A stretch of DNA of 64,000 bases from Alphaproteobacteria bacterium (lineage in GTDB: Bacteria; Pseudomonadota; Alphaproteobacteria; Rhodobacterales; Rhodobacteraceae): assembly GCA_030424865.1 (NCBI GenBank), contig JAUHVR010000013.1, positions 62,001-126,000 of the forward strand. The letters run 5' to 3'. The position numbers were made by a program, and so were the translations under genes. Shown one piece after another: positions 20,970 through 64,000 of this stretch. Numbering within the stretch: position 1 is the stretch's first letter; each line of letters starts with the position of its first letter. The notes beneath the pieces were generated by a model. The model was not told where the DNA came from, did no database searches, and saw only the letters and a program-made list of their open reading frames with translations.

Positions 20970-22028
20970 ATGGGCGCTGGCGTCAAGGGCACCTTTGTCA
21001 TTTCCTGGTCTCAGACAGAACTCGATGGCTTTGAAGCACCGCCTCTTGTGGCTCTGACGGTCGGCGCCACATGGCGCTGGACCGGCACACCCCTCAGGGT
21101 CGATGGTCCCATTGATGTTCTGGCCTTGGACCAACCCCTTGGACAGGCCGAGCTGCGGCAGCGCGCGGCGCGTGCCGTGCGTCGGTTGGTGGGTGCGGCT
21201 GTCAGTGGCGCCCCCCTGACCCAGCCTGCGCTGGACGAAGATGCGCCCCTTCGCGACCGCAGCTTCACCGTCACCAACGGGTTCCGCAGCTTCACGGTCA
21301 CGCTGATCGACGTCCCCGACCATCCCCGCCCCCTGTTGATGTTCACCGACGCGCTGCCGCCCAAGGACACCGACCTCTGGGTCGTCCAGCGCAACCTCTC
21401 GCAACGCCCATTCCGCGACCGGACTCTTGGTGTCATCTGCTTCACGCCCGGCACCCGCATCGCCACGGCCAAGGGCCTGGTTCCGGTGCAGGACCTGCGC
21501 GAGGGCGACATGATCCAGACCAAGGACAATGGCGTGCAGGAACTGCTCTGGACCGGGGCCAAGCGCCTGACTGGCGCGCGGCTTTATTCGATGCCCGATC
21601 TCAGGCCGATCCGCATCCGCGCCGGGGCCTTTGGTCTCGACCGACCTGATCAGGAGTTCCTGGTGTCACCCGACCACCGCATGGTGATTTCGGGGCGCGT
21701 GGCGCAGGCCCTGTTCAACACCTCCGAGGTGCTGGTGGCCGCCCGCGATCTGGTCAACTGGACCACCGTCAGCCGTGATATCACCACACCTGACGTGACC
21801 TATGTGCATCTTCTGCTGCCCCAGCACGAGATCATCTTTGCCAATGGCGTCGAGACCGAAAGCTTTCACCCCGGCAGCACCGATCTTGGGCTGATGAACC
21901 AGATCGACCGCGCCCGGTTGCATGGCGTGATGCCCGAGATCGACGACGATCCGATGACCTATGGCGGGTTCGCGCGCCGTCAGCTCAGCCGGTCCGAAGC
22001 CGCTTTGCTGACGCACCAGGCGGCCTAG
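20970..22028 (+). CDS. Hint (hedgehog/intein) domain protein
   Basis: 352 residues. The N-terminal ~150 residues are a beta-rich region of unknown role, ending in LWVVQRNLSQRPF. A Hint domain follows: the nucleophile-bearing start VICFTPGTRIATAKGLVPV (Cys about residue 157), then LREGDMIQTKDNG, FLVSPDHRMVISG (His of block B), and YVHLLLPQHEIIFANGVETE. Such Hint_2 proteins are abundant in Rhodobacterales. The residue after the Hint end is not a clear splice acceptor, so self-cleavage or a non-splicing role is more likely than protein splicing. Convergent with the SH3 gene one base downstream. Confidence 0.8.
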   Translation: MGAGVKGTFVISWSQTELDGFEAPPLVALTVGATWRWTGTPLRVDGPIDVLALDQPLGQAELRQRAARAVRRLVGAAVSGAPLTQPALDEDAPLRDRSFTVTNGFRSFTVTLIDVPDHPRPLLMFTDALPPKDTDLWVVQRNLSQRPFRDRTLGVICFTPGTRIATAKGLVPVQDLREGDMIQTKDNGVQELLWTGAKRLTGARLYSMPDLRPIRIRAGAFGLDRPDQEFLVSPDHRMVISGRVAQALFNTSEVLVAARDLVNWTTVSRDITTPDVTYVHLLLPQHEIIFANGVETESFHPGSTDLGLMNQIDRARLHGVMPEIDDDPMTYGGFARRQLSRSEAALLTHQAA

Positions 22029-22029
22029 C

Positions 22030-22530
22030 TCAGTCCCTTAGCTCGTCCGGGCGCACACCCCAGAGTGCGTCCTTGCGCGCCCAGCCGCGGTAGCCCGAGA
22101 TTTTCAGCTCGCACCAATCCGCCGTGCAGTCGCCCAGCCGGGCGATCACACCTGATTGCAGACGCGCCCGAACCGGCGTGCGAGGGTCAGGGCGAACGTG
22201 CATTTCCAGCAATTCGGCCTGTACAATCACCGTCCGCGCGCCCGACAGCAGCGAATAATGCACCCAGCCGCCCGCGCCATCCAGATCGCGCACACGGCGC
22301 CAGTGGCCATATTCGGCGGTGATCTCCAGCGGCACGTCCTGCCGCTTGTAAATCCAGTCGATCCGATGGGTCAGCGAGGGTCCGCGGCGCACATTGCCTT
22401 CGGAAGCTTTCAGCGAGACAAACCGCGGCAACGGCAGGTTCGTCACCGGCCCCTTGTCCGAGGCCCGTGCCGCCTGCGAAACAAACACCAAAGCCGCGAC
22501 CAATGCGGCCCGCATCGCTGTTGCAAACAT
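22030..22530 (-). CDS. Secreted SH3-like domain protein (COG3807 type)
   Basis: 166 residues from the ATG at 22528-22530, nine bases after AGGA; the ATG at 22537-22539 is the alternative. A signal peptide (AALVAALVFVSQAARA) is followed by two SH3-like modules: FVSLKASEGNVRRGPS with RVRDLDGAGGWVHYSLL, then ELLEMHVRPDPRTPV with WCELKISGYRGWARKDALW. The family binds or senses the cell wall in the periplasm; exact role unknown. Divergent from the 2-hydroxyacid dehydrogenase gene. Confidence 0.85.
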   Translation of the reverse strand: MFATAMRAALVAALVFVSQAARASDKGPVTNLPLPRFVSLKASEGNVRRGPSLTHRIDWIYKRQDVPLEITAEYGHWRRVRDLDGAGGWVHYSLLSGARTVIVQAELLEMHVRPDPRTPVRARLQSGVIARLGDCTADWCELKISGYRGWARKDALWGVRPDELRD

Positions 22531-22637
22531 GCGCGTCATTCCTGCCCGAGTTTTTAACGGCCGGGTTCTTGTGCCCGTGCCTGTCTTGGGACACTGTGCC
22601 GACAAGCGGCGTCGGTGGAAAGCGAGGGTTTTGAATT

Positions 22638-23724: not shown

Positions 23725-25515
23725 TCATTCGATTTCCATGACGAAACTGACATGTCCGTCTGGAAGGTCTCCCCACAGTGGCGATGCGAAAGCGTTGCTT
23801 TGCCCGGCTACCGGCTTGGCAAAGTAGTGATGAAACTTGGCCACATGTTCAGTGTTGGCGTAGTTGTTTGGTTCGTTCGGGTCCCAAGGCAGGTAGTCGA
23901 CAGGTTCACCGGTCACCCAAGCCCAACCCCCTTCGGGTTCAAGCGAATTGGGAAGCTGACGCAATCCAAACATTGGGCCAAAAGTTCCTTGATCGTCAGT
24001 CGCGAACTCCCACAGCCGTTTGTCTCCTTTGACGAGGTCGAATACAAAGTCGTTCTCTTCTTCACTTGTCATGGTCGCCAAATGCCCGCCGGCTCTTTCG
24101 GCCAGAGATTGGGATTGCTCGAAATTCAATCCCCAACTCAGAACAGCGATATAAATCCTACCGTCATAGATGCCGTAGGCAATCTCAAAGTCTTTAAGTT
24201 CTCTAGCCGCACGGATCAATCGACGGTCTGCCTCGACGACGGCGAGCATATCTGGGTCGAATTTGCGCACGTTGGACGAAGCGACAAGAACCTGATCACC
24301 TGTTTCGGCTTCATCAAGCTCAACATCCAGCGCCAAGGCAGTTGCGCTCGTTATCACGCCGGTCACTGTCAGGTTCATCGAGGCTTGGAAATCCGCAATG
24401 GCTTGTCGGGTCTTGACGCCGACAACGCCATCGGGCGCGCCGGGATCGTATCCGCGGTCCAACAGCGCTTGTTGAATAGCCTGATAGTTTTCTTTGGACA
24501 GCCCCAACTTGTTTTCCGTTCCGCGCGCCACAGAAGCCGAAACCTCAAGAGTATTGTCCGCCTCCACCAACGTACCCGATACGCTGGAGAGTTCAGCAGT
24601 CTCCAGACGTTCGAGTTCAGAAAGCGCGAACTCCCGAAGTCGCCCAGCGGGGAACTTGTCCAAATAGATGTTCCACGCCCGACGTGTTCCAATCGCCGAG
24701 GCCGCTTCAAAAAAGGCTTCTTCCTGATTGTATGCGAGCACGGCCCCCGGTCCACTGTCCCCGAGGTTCAAGTAGATCTCTGTAACCAGGTCATTGGTCA
24801 CCATGGGTGTCTGCTTGTCCCCGGTGCCGCCTTTGACATCCCGGATCACCCGTTTCATCAGGGACAGAACCTCGGCGTTTTCGGTGTCCAGATGGCGGGC
24901 CAGGGATTCCGCGAAGATCGAGTTCGCGCCCTCGCCGTCAAATGCCACCTGCCCCGGTGAGGCCGAGAACACCACCATCGCGCCGTCGGACATGCTGGTC
25001 ACCGGCGCCAACCCGCGCGTCATCATCGCGCGCGTTTCCGAGAAGTTCTGTGTGTAGAACGCATTCGCCAACGGGTTGTCGCGGCAGGCGTCGATGAAAA
25101 CAAGGCTGGCCTTGGAATTCCGCTGCATCAGCGTCAAGACCTGTTCCAGCGAAATCGTCTCGCCCAGTATGTCGAACTCGCTGGCCAGCGCGGCGTCGAC
25201 AGGGATCAGGTAGTTCTTGCCGTCGAACTGCATGCCGTGGCCTGCAAAGTAGAACAGCATGACGTCGGCGCCTTTGTGGGTCTTCACAAAGGACGACAGG
25301 TTCCGGCCCAGGTCAGCCCGCGATTGGTCGAGGTGCAAGGTGACGTCAAAGTCCAGCCCCGCCAGAGTGTCCGCGATCAGCCGTGCATCGGCGACGGGGT
25401 TCTTCAAGGGGTTGGAGTGCAGGTAGGCACTGTTCCCGACAACAAAGGCGACGCGGCTTTCGGCCAGGGCCAGGCCGGGAAGCAATAGCAGGAAAAGCAG
25501 TACGGCGCGGAACAT
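23725..25515 (-). CDS. Secreted caspase-like (C14) / PG-binding / C-type lectin protein, copy 1
   Basis: 596 residues with a signal peptide ending ALAES. Domains in order: caspase p20 with catalytic His93 (FYFAGHGMQ) and Cys144 (FIDACRDNP); a linker; a PG_binding_1 motif (about 336-395, ALLDRGYDPGAPDGVVG, QAIADFQASMNL); and a C-type-lectin-like domain (about 445-596). The lectin part has AERAGGHLATMTSEEE, GGWAWVTGEPVDYLPW, an EPNN motif like the mannose-type calcium site, and WGDLPDG near the end. The lectin half has lower GC (88 of 180 hand-counted bases in three lines between 24001 and 24240) than the protease half. Probably periplasmic or surface-exposed; function unknown. Confidence 0.88.
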   Translation of the reverse strand: MFRAVLLFLLLLPGLALAESRVAFVVGNSAYLHSNPLKNPVADARLIADTLAGLDFDVTLHLDQSRADLGRNLSSFVKTHKGADVMLFYFAGHGMQFDGKNYLIPVDAALASEFDILGETISLEQVLTLMQRNSKASLVFIDACRDNPLANAFYTQNFSETRAMMTRGLAPVTSMSDGAMVVFSASPGQVAFDGEGANSIFAESLARHLDTENAEVLSLMKRVIRDVKGGTGDKQTPMVTNDLVTEIYLNLGDSGPGAVLAYNQEEAFFEAASAIGTRRAWNIYLDKFPAGRLREFALSELERLETAELSSVSGTLVEADNTLEVSASVARGTENKLGLSKENYQAIQQALLDRGYDPGAPDGVVGVKTRQAIADFQASMNLTVTGVITSATALALDVELDEAETGDQVLVASSNVRKFDPDMLAVVEADRRLIRAARELKDFEIAYGIYDGRIYIAVLSWGLNFEQSQSLAERAGGHLATMTSEEENDFVFDLVKGDKRLWEFATDDQGTFGPMFGLRQLPNSLEPEGGWAWVTGEPVDYLPWDPNEPNNYANTEHVAKFHHYFAKPVAGQSNAFASPLWGDLPDGHVSFVMEIE

Positions 25516-25533
25516 GGGGTCAGGTCCTTTTGG

Positions 25534-27327
25534 CTATTCGATCTCGATCACCAAGGATTTCGGCGAATGCGGCAGGTCCCCCCATTGCGGGGCGGTGCCG
25601 TGTTTGCGGTTGGAATTCCGTGGCCAGAGGTCCCAGATGAAGCTGGCGAAATCTTCGTCGTTGTTGTTGTTTCCAGGCTCTCCGGGCGACCAGTTCTGGT
25701 AGGTCACAGGCTCGCCCGTCACCCAGGCCCAGCCGCCGGCCGGCTCCAGCGAACCCGGGCGCTGGATCAGCCCGATGCTTGGGCCAAAGGTCGTTGAGTG
25801 CCCCCGAGTGTGCTTGTGCCAGAACCGCTGATCGTTCTTGACCAGATCGAAAATAAACTGGTTTTCCCGGGCGTCCGAAATCGTTGCGAGATACCCGCCG
25901 GCACGCTCGGCATAGCGGGTGGCTTCTTCGGGGCTCATCAAGCGCCAGGTCTGCACGGCGATGTACAGGTGATCCTGATGGTAGCCGTAGACAAACTCTT
26001 TGCCGACCAGCGCCTTGGCGGCCTCGATCAACCGTTTGTCGGTCTCGATAATGGCCAGCTGCTCGGGATCGTACAGGCGTGCATTGCGCGAAGCGACAAG
26101 CGCGATACTGCTTTCTTCGGCGTCTTCAAGGCTGACACCCAGGGCCGTGGCCGTCGCCTTGGTGATCACGCCCGTGATCGGCAAGTTCACAAAGGCCTGG
26201 AAATCCGCAATGGCCTGGCGCGTTCTTCGCCCGACGACCCCATCGGCCGAGCCGGGATCGTACCCACGGTCCAGCAGGGCCTGCTGGATCGCCCGGTTGT
26301 CTTCGCGCGACAGCCCAAGCTTGCTTTCGACATCAAGGGCCACTTCGCGTGTGACCTCGACGCTGTTGTCGTCCTGGATTTCCGTTCCCGAGGCCTCTGC
26401 CATCTCGATGGCGCCCAGACGCGCGACCTCGGCCAGAGCGATCTCGCGGAAGTTTCCGTTCGGGTACTTGTCCAGGTAGATGTCCCAGGTGCGCCGCGTT
26501 CCGATCGAGACCGCCGCCTCGAAAATCACCTCTTCCTGCTTGAAAGCCAGCGCGGCCCCTGCGCCGCCCGTCCCGAGGTTCAGGTAAATCTCTGTCACCA
26601 GATCGTTGGTCACCATCGGCGTCTGCTTGTCCCCGGTGCCGCCTTTGACATCCCGGATCACCCGTTTCATCAGGGACAGGACCTCGGCGTTTTCGGTGCC
26701 CAGATGGCGGGCCAGAGATTCCGCGAAGATCGAGTTCGCGCCCTCGCCATCAAATGCCACTTGTCCCGGGGACGCGGAAAAGACGACCATGGCCCCATCC
26801 GACGAATTTTGCACCGGCGCCAGCCCGCGTGTCATCATCGCCCGCGTTTCCGAGAAGTTCTGCGTGTAGAACGCATTCGCAAGCGGGTTGTCGCGGCAGG
26901 CGTCGATGAACACAAGGCTGGCCTTGGCGCTGCGCTGCATCAGCCCCATGACCCGGTCGAGCGAGATCGTCTCGCCCTCGATGTCGAACTCGCTGGCCAG
27001 CGCGGCGTCGACCGGGATCAGGTAGTTCTTGCCGTCGAACTGCATGCCGTGGCCTGCAAAGTAGAACAGCATGACGTCGGCGCCCTTGTGGGTCTTCACA
27101 AAGGCCGACAGGTTCCGGCCCAAATCGGCGCGGGATTGGTCGAACTGCAAATCCACCGTGAAGTCGAGCTGGGTCAGGGTCTCTGCGATCAGACTGGCGT
27201 CATTGCCGGGGTTCCGCAAAGCGGCCGCGTGGGCGTAGTCGGAATTGCCGACCACAAATGCAACACGGGTGTCCGCATGCGCCGCAGCGGACAGACAGAC
27301 AACACACAGGATCAATAGCCGAAACAT
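25534..27327 (-). CDS. Secreted caspase-like (C14) / PG-binding / C-type lectin protein, copy 2
   Basis: 597 residues from the ATG at 27325-27327, which follows GGGGGGCGCG and opens a signal peptide ending AAAHAD; the upstream in-frame GTG has no signal sequence. Same architecture as copy 1: FYFAGHGMQ, FIDACRDNP, a PG_binding_1 unit (ALLDRGYDPGSADGVVG), then a C-type lectin fold with AERAGGYLATISDARE, GGWAWVTGEPVTYQNW, an EPGN sequence in place of EPN, and WGDLPHSPKSLVIEIE. The caspase-encoding DNA is almost identical to copy 1 while the lectin half is not. The two genes are 18 bases apart and probably co-transcribed. Confidence 0.88.
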   Translation of the reverse strand: MFRLLILCVVCLSAAAHADTRVAFVVGNSDYAHAAALRNPGNDASLIAETLTQLDFTVDLQFDQSRADLGRNLSAFVKTHKGADVMLFYFAGHGMQFDGKNYLIPVDAALASEFDIEGETISLDRVMGLMQRSAKASLVFIDACRDNPLANAFYTQNFSETRAMMTRGLAPVQNSSDGAMVVFSASPGQVAFDGEGANSIFAESLARHLGTENAEVLSLMKRVIRDVKGGTGDKQTPMVTNDLVTEIYLNLGTGGAGAALAFKQEEVIFEAAVSIGTRRTWDIYLDKYPNGNFREIALAEVARLGAIEMAEASGTEIQDDNSVEVTREVALDVESKLGLSREDNRAIQQALLDRGYDPGSADGVVGRRTRQAIADFQAFVNLPITGVITKATATALGVSLEDAEESSIALVASRNARLYDPEQLAIIETDKRLIEAAKALVGKEFVYGYHQDHLYIAVQTWRLMSPEEATRYAERAGGYLATISDARENQFIFDLVKNDQRFWHKHTRGHSTTFGPSIGLIQRPGSLEPAGGWAWVTGEPVTYQNWSPGEPGNNNNDEDFASFIWDLWPRNSNRKHGTAPQWGDLPHSPKSLVIEIE

Positions 27328-27520: not shown

Positions 27521-27922
27521 TCAGTTCTTGATGTAAACCGTGTATTCGGTCTTGCCGCTCTTGCACTCTTTGCGCTTGGACCAGCTGCGCCAGTCGCCCA
27601 CGTATTTCCCTTGCTGGTCCTTCTTGTGGTACTGGGCGCGGATCTGGCTGCGGGTGCCTTTGACGCCTTCGAGGTTGCGTTCAAAGGTGTAGGACTGGCC
27701 CGGGCTCAGAACGCGGTTCTTGAAAGGTTCCGAGGCCCAGCGTTCGGTGCCCGGATCGTAATAGTCGATGTCAAAGACCTCGACCTTTTCGTCCAGGTTG
27801 TTGACCAGCTTGATTTCGATGTCCTTGCAGATGTCGAAAAAGCCGGCCTGGGCGGTGCCGGCAAAGGCCAGCGTGCTGAGGGTCAGGGCGATCTTGGCGG
27901 TGGTCTTGAAGATATTGGTCAT
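27521..27922 (-). CDS. Small secreted basic protein, function unknown
   Basis: 133 residues from the ATG at 27920-27922, preceded by GGAGAC, with a signal peptide ending GTAQAGFFD. The mature protein has two cysteines (DICKDIEIK and KRKECKSGK) that could form a disulfide, a beta-type pattern (EVFDIDYYDPGTERW, LSPGQSYTFERNLEG), and a basic middle. The layout suggests a small beta-sandwich of the kind that binds or stabilises surface structures, but I do not recognise a family. It lies upstream of the caspase-lectin pair on the same strand, with its own terminator between. Confidence 0.75.
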   Translation of the reverse strand: MTNIFKTTAKIALTLSTLAFAGTAQAGFFDICKDIEIKLVNNLDEKVEVFDIDYYDPGTERWASEPFKNRVLSPGQSYTFERNLEGVKGTRSQIRAQYHKKDQQGKYVGDWRSWSKRKECKSGKTEYTVYIKN

Positions 27923-28053
27923 TTGAAAGTCTCCGGTTTGGGTTTGATGTAATCGTCGTTGCGATGACATCGTTATGCCGGGAGACGGGCGCCCATCGTA
28001 TGGGGTCGATACCCCAATCTGTTTGCGCACCGGGACAGGCGGGACCGCCAATG

Positions 28054-59895: not shown

Positions 59896-61311
59896 TCAGT
59901 TGAACCATATGAAATAGGCCAGGAACCCCCGGTCGAAGATATCGAACATCGTCTGGGCCGTTTGCGCGGATACGAGCTCGCCCTCTTCGAGGTAGGGGAT
60001 GACCGCCGCCCCCTGCGCGATCATCACCGGGTCAAAGGTGCGCGGGTCCTCGAACATGCGCCGCACGTTCAAGCCCTTGCCAAGAAAGCGCCAATGCGCA
60101 ATCAGCTTGCGGCCTTCCAGCACATCCTCTGCCGTGTCCAGAAAGGCATGCCATCCCGCAATCACGTCCTTGTTGACACGCATGCGCGGAAAGCGCGGGG
60201 TCTGGTCCGGAGAGGGCAGCCATTCGTACTTGTCATCGCTTTCAAGAAGGATACGTCGCCAGTTTTCGCGGCTCAGCTCGACCATCGTCAGCAGGTGCAC
60301 CCGGGATTTTGCCATGCGGGCCTTGTCGACGACGGGCCAGTCGAAACGATGGATGAAGGCAATCACGTCGGCGATGCCTCCATATTCAAGGAACGTCCAC
60401 GCGCGGCGAGATTCCTCGCCATGGTTGATGTTCCAATCTTTCCATTCCAGGCCTTGCGCAGTGACGTCCCACTGCGCGCGCGTCGGCCGGTTGGGGTCGT
60501 TGCGGCTGTAGCGTCTCTCGGCGTCCCAATAGTTTGGCGGTTCGGGATGTTGCATGATGTACGCCAACGCAGCGTCCGCAGAGCGTCGCAGTTCAGAGGA
60601 GTACAGGTCTGTTTCCGGAAACATGAAATGAAAGGTCTCGTCAAAGGCCTGTTGCCAGTCGTGCGCCAGCAGAAACTCGGTCATTGCCCGTAACAGGTGC
60701 GTATACCCGCGCAGCCAGGGGGCATCACTCTGATCGAAGTCGAACTTCAGGCCTTTGCGCGGAGGATCCATTTGAGCGACAGCCGAAAACAGGGCGGCGA
60801 GACGCTCGTCCGATCTGACATTCCCGTCGCCATTGAAGTCAAGCGAGACAGAGGCAAGGTCCAGTTGAAAATCAAACGCCTCTGGCCCGATCAGGGCCAG
60901 CGTTCCGTCGGCTATCGCCAGATCCTGTGAAAACCTGTCCAGGATGTCCCGCAACCCGTCATACGTGACAGGCTGCGGATCGGGGTTTGGCGGCACAGGC
61001 ACCCTGAGAAACGGCAGGCCAGCCATACCGATCCAGTCACCATGGGTTTCGGCATTGCCGAGGCCAAAGCCGTACAACCCATTGCCCATCCGTTCGATCG
61101 CGTAGAGAAACTGCGCGGTCCCCAGGGCGAACCTGGCGGGTGGGCCGCCCTCTGTGTCCAGCCAATCCTCGGCCAATTGCATGGCATCCTGGGTGCGGCC
61201 CTGTTCGAGCAAGGCTCCAAAGTCCTTTGCAGGATCGGTACGCGCTGGTCCGGTGACAAGACAGGTCGCCGCCACAACGGCTGCCGCGGTGCGTATGACT
61301 TTCAGGTGCAT
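59896..61311 (-). CDS. Secreted protein with EF-hand-like loop, function unknown
   Basis: 471 residues from the ATG at 61309-61311 (GGGAGGGGG upstream). Signal peptide ending TGPARTD, then a TPR-like helical N-terminus (FGALLEQGRTQDAMQLAEDW). One EF-hand-type calcium loop, DFNGDGNVRSDE, lies at about residues 161-172, flanked by helices. The rest is helical with many Trp/Tyr-rich helices (WDAERRYSRNDPN, DKYEWLPSPDQ). No domain that I recognise after the EF loop. Probably periplasmic. Confidence 0.75.
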   Translation of the reverse strand: MHLKVIRTAAAVVAATCLVTGPARTDPAKDFGALLEQGRTQDAMQLAEDWLDTEGGPPARFALGTAQFLYAIERMGNGLYGFGLGNAETHGDWIGMAGLPFLRVPVPPNPDPQPVTYDGLRDILDRFSQDLAIADGTLALIGPEAFDFQLDLASVSLDFNGDGNVRSDERLAALFSAVAQMDPPRKGLKFDFDQSDAPWLRGYTHLLRAMTEFLLAHDWQQAFDETFHFMFPETDLYSSELRRSADAALAYIMQHPEPPNYWDAERRYSRNDPNRPTRAQWDVTAQGLEWKDWNINHGEESRRAWTFLEYGGIADVIAFIHRFDWPVVDKARMAKSRVHLLTMVELSRENWRRILLESDDKYEWLPSPDQTPRFPRMRVNKDVIAGWHAFLDTAEDVLEGRKLIAHWRFLGKGLNVRRMFEDPRTFDPVMIAQGAAVIPYLEEGELVSAQTAQTMFDIFDRGFLAYFIWFN

Positions 61312-61454
61312 GATATCCCCCTCCCGTGAGATAGGGACCCAGCATGCCACACGGGGCCCGGCTGTCATTGATCTGTCGCAAACGGGGCCCAGAGCTCCCC
61401 GGCGTTGCAGCGGAGGGACGCGAGTGCGTAAACTACTGCCATGGGAGTGGTGCG

Positions 61455-62326: not shown

Positions 62327-64000
62327 TCATTCCAGCATCAACACAAGGCTTTGTCGGCCATTGTGATTGTTTGCCCAGCCCCACCCAGATGCACCCGGCT
62401 TGGTGGTTTTTTCGCCAAGACGGTACTCGGCCACATTTGATCGTTTGGGGTTGTGAGGATACCCACTCAGCCATTTGGAATAGCGGAGCGGACTGCCATC
62501 GTGCCAGGCCCACGTGGTCGCGCCGTCCTGACCGTTGAACAAGCCAATGGTTGGTCCGGCCATCCAATTTTGAGAGTCATAGCCATCGGCCCAAAAGAAC
62601 GGTTCGAACTTGAACAAACTGACCACAAAGCGGTTCACTTCGCGGCTTTCGATTTTCGCAAGGGAACCGTCTGCCTTGGCGGCCAGTTGCAGCATCTGGG
62701 GCTTGGACATTCCGAACCCGGTGCGGACCACCGAATAAAGCCGGTCTTCGAAAAACCCATAAGTGATCTGCGCCTGAGGCGCTGCCCGGACAAGTTTCAG
62801 AACGCGCGGATCGTTTTCGACCAACCCAAGCAAGTCGGGATCGTACCGTTTCCCGCTGGGTGAGGCCACGGCATACCACGTTTCCGGGCCGGCCCGTCGC
62901 GTGTGCAGGTCAAGGGCGGCCAAGGTGGGGCGATCGATCACGCCATCTGCCAGCAAACCGCGATCCGACTGGAACGCGGCCACGGCTGTAAAACTCTTGT
63001 CTCCAAGGACGCCGTCGATTTTTCCGGGATCATACCCGAACTCTGTAAGGATCGACTGGACCGCAAGGCGTTCAGCGCGTGTCAGCCCCGAAAAAGAGAC
63101 CGAGGCCAAACGCATGCCCCGTTGGACATCTGCCTTGTCATGCTCGGTCGCCAGCAATCGCATGGCTTGCCGGAACGTCTTGGATTCTCGGGCAAGGGCC
63201 TCTTCGGTCCACCTGCTTTTCGGGTGATCGTTGAAGAAATGAGCCCAGGCGCGAGGGGTGTTGATCCGCCGTGCGGCTTCGTAAGCGCGGTCCGCTTTTG
63301 GGTCGAGGGGATCGGCCAGCGGGGTCTCAGAGACGGACGCATTGTTGCGGGCCAGAGCAGCGAGATCCTCTTCCCTGTCCCGCAATTCTTGCTCGACCTC
63401 TGCACGTTTTTCTTCTTCGGCCGCAGCGAGGGCGGCCAGTTGGTCGCGCTCTGCCAGCGCGGCTGCCGCCTCGGCCGCCAGCTTTTCCGTCTCGGCCTTG
63501 GCGCTTGCGGCCTCTTGCATCAATCTCAGGCGCTCGGTTGTGGCGTCGTCTTGCCCCAGCGCAGCTTGCCGCAGCTGGCGAGCGACGGCCACAAGCGCCT
63601 GATTGTCCGACCCTTCGTGGCGGTCCAGAAACCTATCCCACGCAGCGACATCCCCCTTGTCGCTGGCGATCTGAAAGTCCGCGACGATCGACGACTGGCC
63701 TGCAAGAAAGATATCGTGTCCGGGCAATGACCCATAGGTGAATGGCTCTTGTTGCCCGCCCGTCTTTTCCCGAACCGTGTCCCGGACCTTGCGGAACATC
63801 TTTCCAAGTTCAACGCCCGGTTCCTCGATATGTTCCAACAGAGCCTCTGCGTAGGGGCTGTTACGGCCTGTGCCGTCCAGGGCCAGTGTTCCGGCCCTCG
63901 CGGCATAGCCGACCAGGACGCCGCTGCTGGGATCGAACCGTCGCAAACCGCGACCGATGGATCGGGTTGCAGAGGTGCGCTGCATCTCGGCCACAAACGG
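62327..64000 (-). CDS. Caspase-like / coiled coil / PG-binding / C-type lectin protein, copy 3 (5' end off window)
   Basis: 557 codons visible; the 5' end is cut. The first visible codons read PFVAEMQRTSATR, matching the sequence just after the catalytic ACRDN of the other copies, so the Cys is just outside. Caspase remainder (GVLVGYAARAGTLALDG, SPYAEALLEHI, VRDTVREKTGGQQEPF), then a coiled coil of about 90 residues rich in Glu and Ala, a PG_binding_1 unit (ILTEFGYDPGKIDGVLG), and a lectin-like domain (WAWHDGSPLRYSKW, YPHNPKRSN, WGWANNHNG). The lectin motif differs from copies 1 and 2. The coiled coil is absent from them. Confidence 0.85.
   Translation of the reverse strand, partial: PFVAEMQRTSATRSIGRGLRRFDPSSGVLVGYAARAGTLALDGTGRNSPYAEALLEHIEEPGVELGKMFRKVRDTVREKTGGQQEPFTYGSLPGHDIFLAGQSSIVADFQIASDKGDVAAWDRFLDRHEGSDNQALVAVARQLRQAALGQDDATTERLRLMQEAASAKAETEKLAAEAAAALAERDQLAALAAAEEEKRAEVEQELRDREEDLAALARNNASVSETPLADPLDPKADRAYEAARRINTPRAWAHFFNDHPKSRWTEEALARESKTFRQAMRLLATEHDKADVQRGMRLASVSFSGLTRAERLAVQSILTEFGYDPGKIDGVLGDKSFTAVAAFQSDRGLLADGVIDRPTLAALDLHTRRAGPETWYAVASPSGKRYDPDLLGLVENDPRVLKLVRAAPQAQITYGFFEDRLYSVVRTGFGMSKPQMLQLAAKADGSLAKIESREVNRFVVSLFKFEPFFWADGYDSQNWMAGPTIGLFNGQDGATTWAWHDGSPLRYSKWLSGYPHNPKRSNVAEYRLGEKTTKPGASGWGWANNHNGRQSLVLMLE

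Follow-up and report, generated by a model that had tools for sequence, protein, structure and literature searches.

Candidate exported paracaspase-like proteases with peptidoglycan-binding and exchangeable C-type-lectin-like domains in an alphaproteobacterium

The 64,000-nucleotide stretch analysed here (the window; contig JAUHVR010000013.1, positions 62,001 to 126,000, from a bacterium of the Rhodobacteraceae) encodes three proteins, named A, B and C, in which a caspase domain is followed by a peptidoglycan-binding (PG-binding) domain and a C-type-lectin-like domain. Our reading, for and against which the chances seem about equal, is that they are exported, peptidoglycan-tethered paracaspase-like proteases whose lectin-like domain is an exchangeable recognition module. 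An earlier note on this DNA had placed tandem genes of this architecture at 23725-27327, with a third at the window edge, and the Pfam matches and the coordinates bore this out. Prokaryotic caspases are usually discussed as intracellular cell-death enzymes. Exported-looking, wall-tethered caspases with a recognition half exchanged as a unit would make the ligand and the trigger testable through natural alleles. If the trigger were a foreign glycan or a phage part, the protein would be an envelope receptor in which a lectin gates a protease.

The Peptidase_C14 domain (PF00656) was matched in Pfam at 137.1 bits in A, 137.0 bits in B and 140.3 bits in C (whole domain), compared with a cut-off of 21.4. 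The E-values were 9.6e-40, 1e-39 and, for the part of C inside the window, 1.9e-9, and a chance match of the domains was thereby excluded. His93 and Cys144 were present in all three proteins. Furthermore, His93, Cys144, D43, D142, A191 and D193 were invariant in 24/24 rows of the family alignment, in which loci L086 and L087 are near-identical, L098 is truncated at a contig end, and the plasmid copies L175-L178 are not included. MALT1 was the closest solved relative by sequence, with values of 3.1e-11 for A alone and 1.8e-20 for the family profile. The AlphaFold models of A and C had mean predicted local distance difference test (pLDDT) scores of 84.3 and 81.0, respectively. In VIA-align, where the rows for both models covered the caspase part only, MALT1 ranked first for A (Z 26.3, root-mean-square deviation 2.6 over 210 residues) and for C (Z 26.7), with the human caspases close behind. 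The viral library search also returned caspases first, together with weaker matches to poxvirus C-type-lectin-like proteins. A caspase fold with an intact His/Cys dyad, as proposed in the earlier note, is supported for A by the predicted model, and the domain is paracaspase-like, its nearest animal relative by sequence and predicted fold being MALT1.

According to PMC4357240, the arginine pocket of MALT1 consists of Asp365, Asp462 and Glu500, the enzyme is specific for Arg, and dimerisation is needed. In the HMMER alignments, D43 stood opposite MALT1 Asp365 and D142 opposite Asp462, with the numbering counted from His415. D193 was presumably the counterpart of Glu500. From the invariance of these acidic residues of the presumed pocket, we predict that the enzyme cuts after Arg or Lys. 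Only C14, PG-binding and lectin domains exceeded the cut-off in Pfam, which found no Ig or death domains. With none of these around the caspase, a MALT1 orthologue was ruled out.

The PG_binding_1 domain (PF01471) scored 52.5 to 54.4 bits in A, B and C (cut-off 23; E-value 5.7e-14 or better), and binding to peptidoglycan would be expected from the family. The C-terminal lectin of the earlier note fared less evenly. For Lectin_C (PF00059, cut-off 22.6), the score was clear in B (28.0 bits), marginal in A (22.7 bits) and below the cut-off in C (16.8 bits). However, the lectin of C alone retrieved the macrophage mannose receptor in phmmer (3.3e-6), aligned with the other lectins and showed, in its model, strands and helices in the same succession. 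In addition, a profile built from 22 lectin domains found mannose-receptor-type chains, the best whole-chain value being 5.8e-25. Conserved disulphide cysteines are a usual feature of C-type lectins; the lectin region of A, with zero cysteines, does not have them. Taken as a likeness of sequence, the assignment to a C-type-lectin-like fold is good. A secreted-looking protein of 1109 amino acids at another locus (L085, 6070-9396) carries five C-type lectin domains, and these contain cysteines.

Each of the three proteins begins with a short hydrophobic leader that closes with an A-x-A/S-like site, and all three look exported. The earlier note had seen a signal peptide in two of them; the genome sequence, which gives C in full length, adds the leader and the remaining caspase domain of the third. 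C also has an extra long helix between the caspase and the PG-binding unit. Since a Sec-type leader is combined with a PG-binding domain in a presumed Gram-negative, the periplasm is the indicated location. Of the periplasmic or surface protease suggested before, the periplasmic placement is thus favoured and the surface placement is not. B lies directly upstream of A in tandem, and because the two genes share a strand and are separated by 18 bases, they are probably one transcript.

The three domains do not vary alike. In A and B, 24/93 fourfold-degenerate sites differed within residues 61-250, compared with 76/126 elsewhere (Fisher p 3.6e-7), which we read as homogenisation of the near-identical catalytic cores by gene conversion, with the lectins staying at 49% identity. 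The lectins of A and C were 31% identical, and the mean identity over all pairs was 38% for lectins and 50% for caspases. The ligands of the lectins probably differ. The difference among the three lectins, already claimed in the earlier note, was strengthened by the gene conversion and by an exchange in Rhizobium. There, the two loci L094 and L097 have an identity of about 93% across 13 kb. Within the gene, the caspase halves share 740/798 bases, whereas the PG-binding and lectin halves share 568/873. Identity falls mid-gene, at about 8850, from about 95% to 65% and stays low up to the stop codon, immediately past which it is back to 95%. Compared with the more distant L096, L094 shared 723/873 bases in the PG-binding and lectin half and 629/795 in the caspase half. 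By these DNA comparisons, the PG-binding and lectin half is replaced in Rhizobium, with sharp edges, within a locus that elsewhere has about 93% identity. The approximately unbiased (AU) test rejected the grouping of L094 with L097 in the tree of this half (p 9e-5), and in the caspase tree it rejected the union of the rhizobia with G055b and G043, which is the grouping of their lectins (p 1.7e-10). The two trees were discordant, and long branches leave the deeper placements unsure. L094 and L097 form a natural pair with nearly the same protease and two different lectins.

In four genomes, the same lectin module follows a class III cyclase within one protein, with the cyclase domain confirmed in three of the four; the fusion at L080 was judged from sequence only. 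The fusions (L077, 5185-6381; L079, 5588-6757; L080, 4388-5602; L081, 3483-4712) have a likely membrane helix between the domains and are candidate lectin-gated cyclases. Moreover, a gene for a CHASE2-cyclase abuts the caspase-lectin gene in genome G193, the distance to a homologous cyclase is about 700 bases in G043, and an FHA-cyclase gene precedes the caspase-lectin gene in Mesorhizobium. This adjacency is suggestive of a link between cyclases and caspase-lectin proteins, not proof.

Full caspase/PG-binding/lectin proteins were found in 5/295 genomes of the window's family, counted as those whose match, among the matches listed, spans the PG-binding and lectin parts in a caspase-bearing frame. 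When 385 genomes of the class were searched with the lectin profile, 3 gave matches, two of them among the five. The named carriers include Rhizobium, Ensifer, Mesorhizobium, Zongyanglinia and Roseivivax. Plasmid copies occurred in R. leguminosarum 248, Ensifer adhaerens and Phaeobacter piscinae, and some of the plasmids were typed as conjugative. After duplicate places were removed, 32 lectin-bearing open reading frames (ORFs) remained, 24 with a caspase and 8 without. Presence/absence variation, a point raised in the earlier note, was observed in one congener (G082, 91% complete). Its flanking dehydrogenase and leuA were 96% and 95% identical to those of the window, the spacing between them was about 1.2 kb versus 4.5 kb in the window, and none of A, B and the small ORF upstream of B was present at that site. 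Neighbour clustering over 21 loci gave no partner gene common to most loci. Besides paralogous caspases, the recurring neighbours were cyclases as well as genes that flank the rhizobial site, ppdK and SMC among them; of the 284 neighbour ORFs, the named ones only were run against Pfam.

These results suggest the following mechanism. The Sec-type leader would export the protein to the periplasm, where PG_binding_1, as its family implies, would hold it on peptidoglycan. The lectin-like domain would bind an envelope or foreign ligand, different for each paralogue in line with the observed sequence difference. By analogy with MALT1, binding might then cluster or release the caspase domains, which would be active as dimers, and a protein would be cleaved after Arg or Lys, as the invariant acidic pocket predicts. 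Most likely, the system would raise an envelope alarm or mount a conflict response, which some relatives might couple to cyclic-nucleotide signalling. A more specific version, possible but tentative, is envelope pattern recognition, in which a C-type lectin sensor and a wall-anchored, MALT1-like, Arg-specific paracaspase share one chain. The effector would be kept uniform by gene conversion, the lectin halves would be swapped between alleles and strains, and the same sensor would drive cyclases in relatives. Such a system would parallel, within a single chain, the animal pathway from lectin receptors to MALT1, and would be diversified by recombination and not by a retroelement.

Several observations weigh against the reading of a tethered protease with a recognition module, in which peptidoglycan binding and activation by a ligand are steps that we infer. 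The calcium-site motifs of C-type lectins are EPN/QPD and WND; EPN was found in 3/24 rows, WND in 3/24 and W-x-D in 23/24, and none in C. With a motif this variable, sugar binding is uncertain. The clean swap was found in Rhizobium, not in the window's genus. Furthermore, the AU test on the caspase tree did not reject L094 with L096 (p 0.198), and the case for the caspase halves of these two is carried by DNA identity, not by the tree. Adjacent cyclases occurred at a few loci only, in genomes with 16 to 23 cyclases (17 in G043 and 18 in G193). The window's genome had no CHASE2 protein and one weak cyclase match, so that coupling to cyclases cannot work there as in the relatives.

The lectin-like domain might instead direct the choice or placement of substrates by glycan or protein docking. 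The protease would then serve envelope housekeeping or remodelling with no ligand trigger, and the lectin differences would reflect different substrates. The varied C-terminal modules on the 20 caspase-domain proteins of the host genome would also fit substrate adaptors, and C-lectin variants are discussed as selectors of kinase substrates in a section of PMC7517822. We nevertheless consider this explanation rather unlikely, as the same lectin module also terminates likely membrane cyclases, and in that position it cannot serve a protease as substrate adaptor. The exchange of lectin halves behind an unchanged protease fits varying targets, although varying substrates would fit too.

Unlikely to a greater degree is anti-phage or inter-bacterial defence, in which the lectin would detect parts of a phage or of an attacker's envelope and the protease would kill or disable the cell. 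The patchy, rare and partly conjugative-plasmid-borne distribution, the presence or absence between congeners and the exchange of lectin halves agree with defence, and PMC10907252 proposes conflict systems in which C-lectin antigen sensors are combined with caspase-like effectors. However, PADLOC recognised no known defence system, giving only a weak and generic caspase match (1.7e-7 at best), no defence island surrounds A and B, and the proteins appear to be exported rather than cytosolic. An ordinary exported protease for nutrients or host interaction, with lectins that drifted neutrally after duplication, is very improbable. The lectins are everywhere more diverged than the caspases, as for a less constrained domain, but drift cannot yield an identity drop that starts mid-gene and ends at a stop codon, nor can it explain why one allele matches a more distant strain. 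Neutral drift is therefore disfavoured by the sharp edges of the swap.

Table 1. Positions of the caspase-lectin genes, their parts and a neighbouring ORF in the window.
Feature	Window coordinates	Strand	Residues	Description
ORF A	23725..25515	-	596 aa	leader, caspase (C14), helical linker, PG_binding_1, lectin-like domain
ORF A, leader			1-19	
ORF A, caspase			20-250	His93, Cys144; acidic D43/D142/D193
ORF A, catalytic core, read as homogenised with B	24766..25335	-	61-250	by codon arithmetic
ORF A, helical linker			251-335	
ORF A, PG_binding_1			341-395	
ORF A, lectin-like domain	23728..24195	-	~441-596	coordinates for residues 441-596 by codon arithmetic
ORF B	25534..27327	-	597 aa	ATG at 27327, stop codon end at 25534; domain order as A
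ORF C	62327..64000	-	702 aa in all (L029)	3' part in window; genome start GTG
Small ORF upstream of B	27521..28051	-	176 aa	hydrophobic leader; no family

The neighbours of A and B, identified by translation and Pfam, were the dehydrogenase, leuA, and Hint and SH3 proteins; a Hint_2 domain protein at 20970-22028 is followed by a bacterial SH3 protein at 22030-22605. The small ORF upstream of B had no Pfam family, was in no neighbour cluster of at least three loci and gave no sign of functional membership in the A/B system. The guanine-plus-cytosine content over A and B (56-63%, against 58-65% around) was uninformative as to a compositional island. No tRNA insertion site was found in the window, and the promoter and terminator scan gave a result near chance level. 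Downstream of C, an ORF of 490 amino acids (59896-61368) was without a Pfam or NCBIfam match.

The host genome encodes 20 C14 proteins over the cut-off in 4.77 Mb, that is, 17 beyond A, B and C. Among 80 family genomes including the host, which was counted there as 19, 37 had any C14 protein and the next highest number was 13. Judged by eye, the start of most of the 20 resembles a leader, and the C-terminal units are PG-binding, SH3, LprI, PDZ, cyclophilin and Sel1. Four caspase-domain genes stand in a row on contig C31, three of them with Sel1 repeats; a caspase-cyclophilin fusion lies at C35:179600; and a pseudo-caspase without the Cys motif has two PG_binding_1 domains (L041, 3018-4682; C8:350104). 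Two genomes share a group of neighbouring genes for caspase-SH3, caspase-LprI and a third caspase (L030, C28:111721-115698; L072, 6808-11779), the LprI part being lysozyme inhibitor-like, and in G055 these genes lie beside a caspase-lectin gene. A caspase fused to an NADase-translocation/F5-8 type C domain adjoins the caspase-lectin gene at L073 (5820-7319).

Exported and PG-binding caspase homologues were already noted in 2012 (PMC3501461). The prokaryotic orthocaspases and metacaspases (MEROPS C14B) have, like A, B and C, a caspase domain with the His/Cys dyad. In that survey, a PG-binding domain was present in 11 sequences (1.6%), and the alphaproteobacteria were rich in caspase homologues. 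Compared with these, A, B and C add an exchanged C-type-lectin-like domain; term searches of the main texts of PMC3501461, PMC4933709 and PMC8283722 found no mention of a lectin. Orthocaspases with a C-terminal C-type lectin are, in the relevant section of PMC7517822, variable proteins of cyanobacterial diversity-generating retroelements (DGRs). They share with A, B and C the N-terminal caspase, the C-terminal C-lectin fold and the variation in the lectin part, but are described there as retroelement-diversified and mostly predicted to be cytosolic, whereas here an export leader and a PG-binding domain are present and the variation appears to arise by recombination. A DGR origin of the lectin differences was ruled out, as the host genome (99.98% complete) had no reverse transcriptase (0 RVT_1 matches). 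The earlier note had overlooked these published fusions, as well as the paracaspase-like character of the caspase and the 17 further caspase-domain proteins.

MALT1 shares the dyad and presumably the basic-pocket residues with A, B and C, which differ from it in being bacterial and exported-looking and in lacking Ig and death domains. Signals from animal C-type lectin receptors reach MALT1 via CARD9/BCL10, and the union of a lectin with a MALT1-like caspase on one chain presumably represents convergence. The EACC1 'System 4', in the part of PMC7159879 that treats it, likewise combines a caspase with diverse C-terminal domains, and caspase and cyclic-nucleotide (cNMP) cyclase are interchangeable in it. 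The EACC1-associated caspase was rejected as an assignment (NF047832 at 42.5, 49.8 and 70.1 bits, far below the cut-off of 140), and no EACC1 gene was recognised upstream. C-lectin antigen sensors in conflict systems have likewise been proposed (PMC10907252). No description of a caspase/PG-binding/C-type-lectin protein or of recombinational lectin exchange was found in our searches of the open-licence literature. Caspases with a C-type lectin and PG-binding caspases were each known, and what appears to be new here is the caspase/PG-binding/C-type-lectin architecture and the exchange of its lectin half by recombination.

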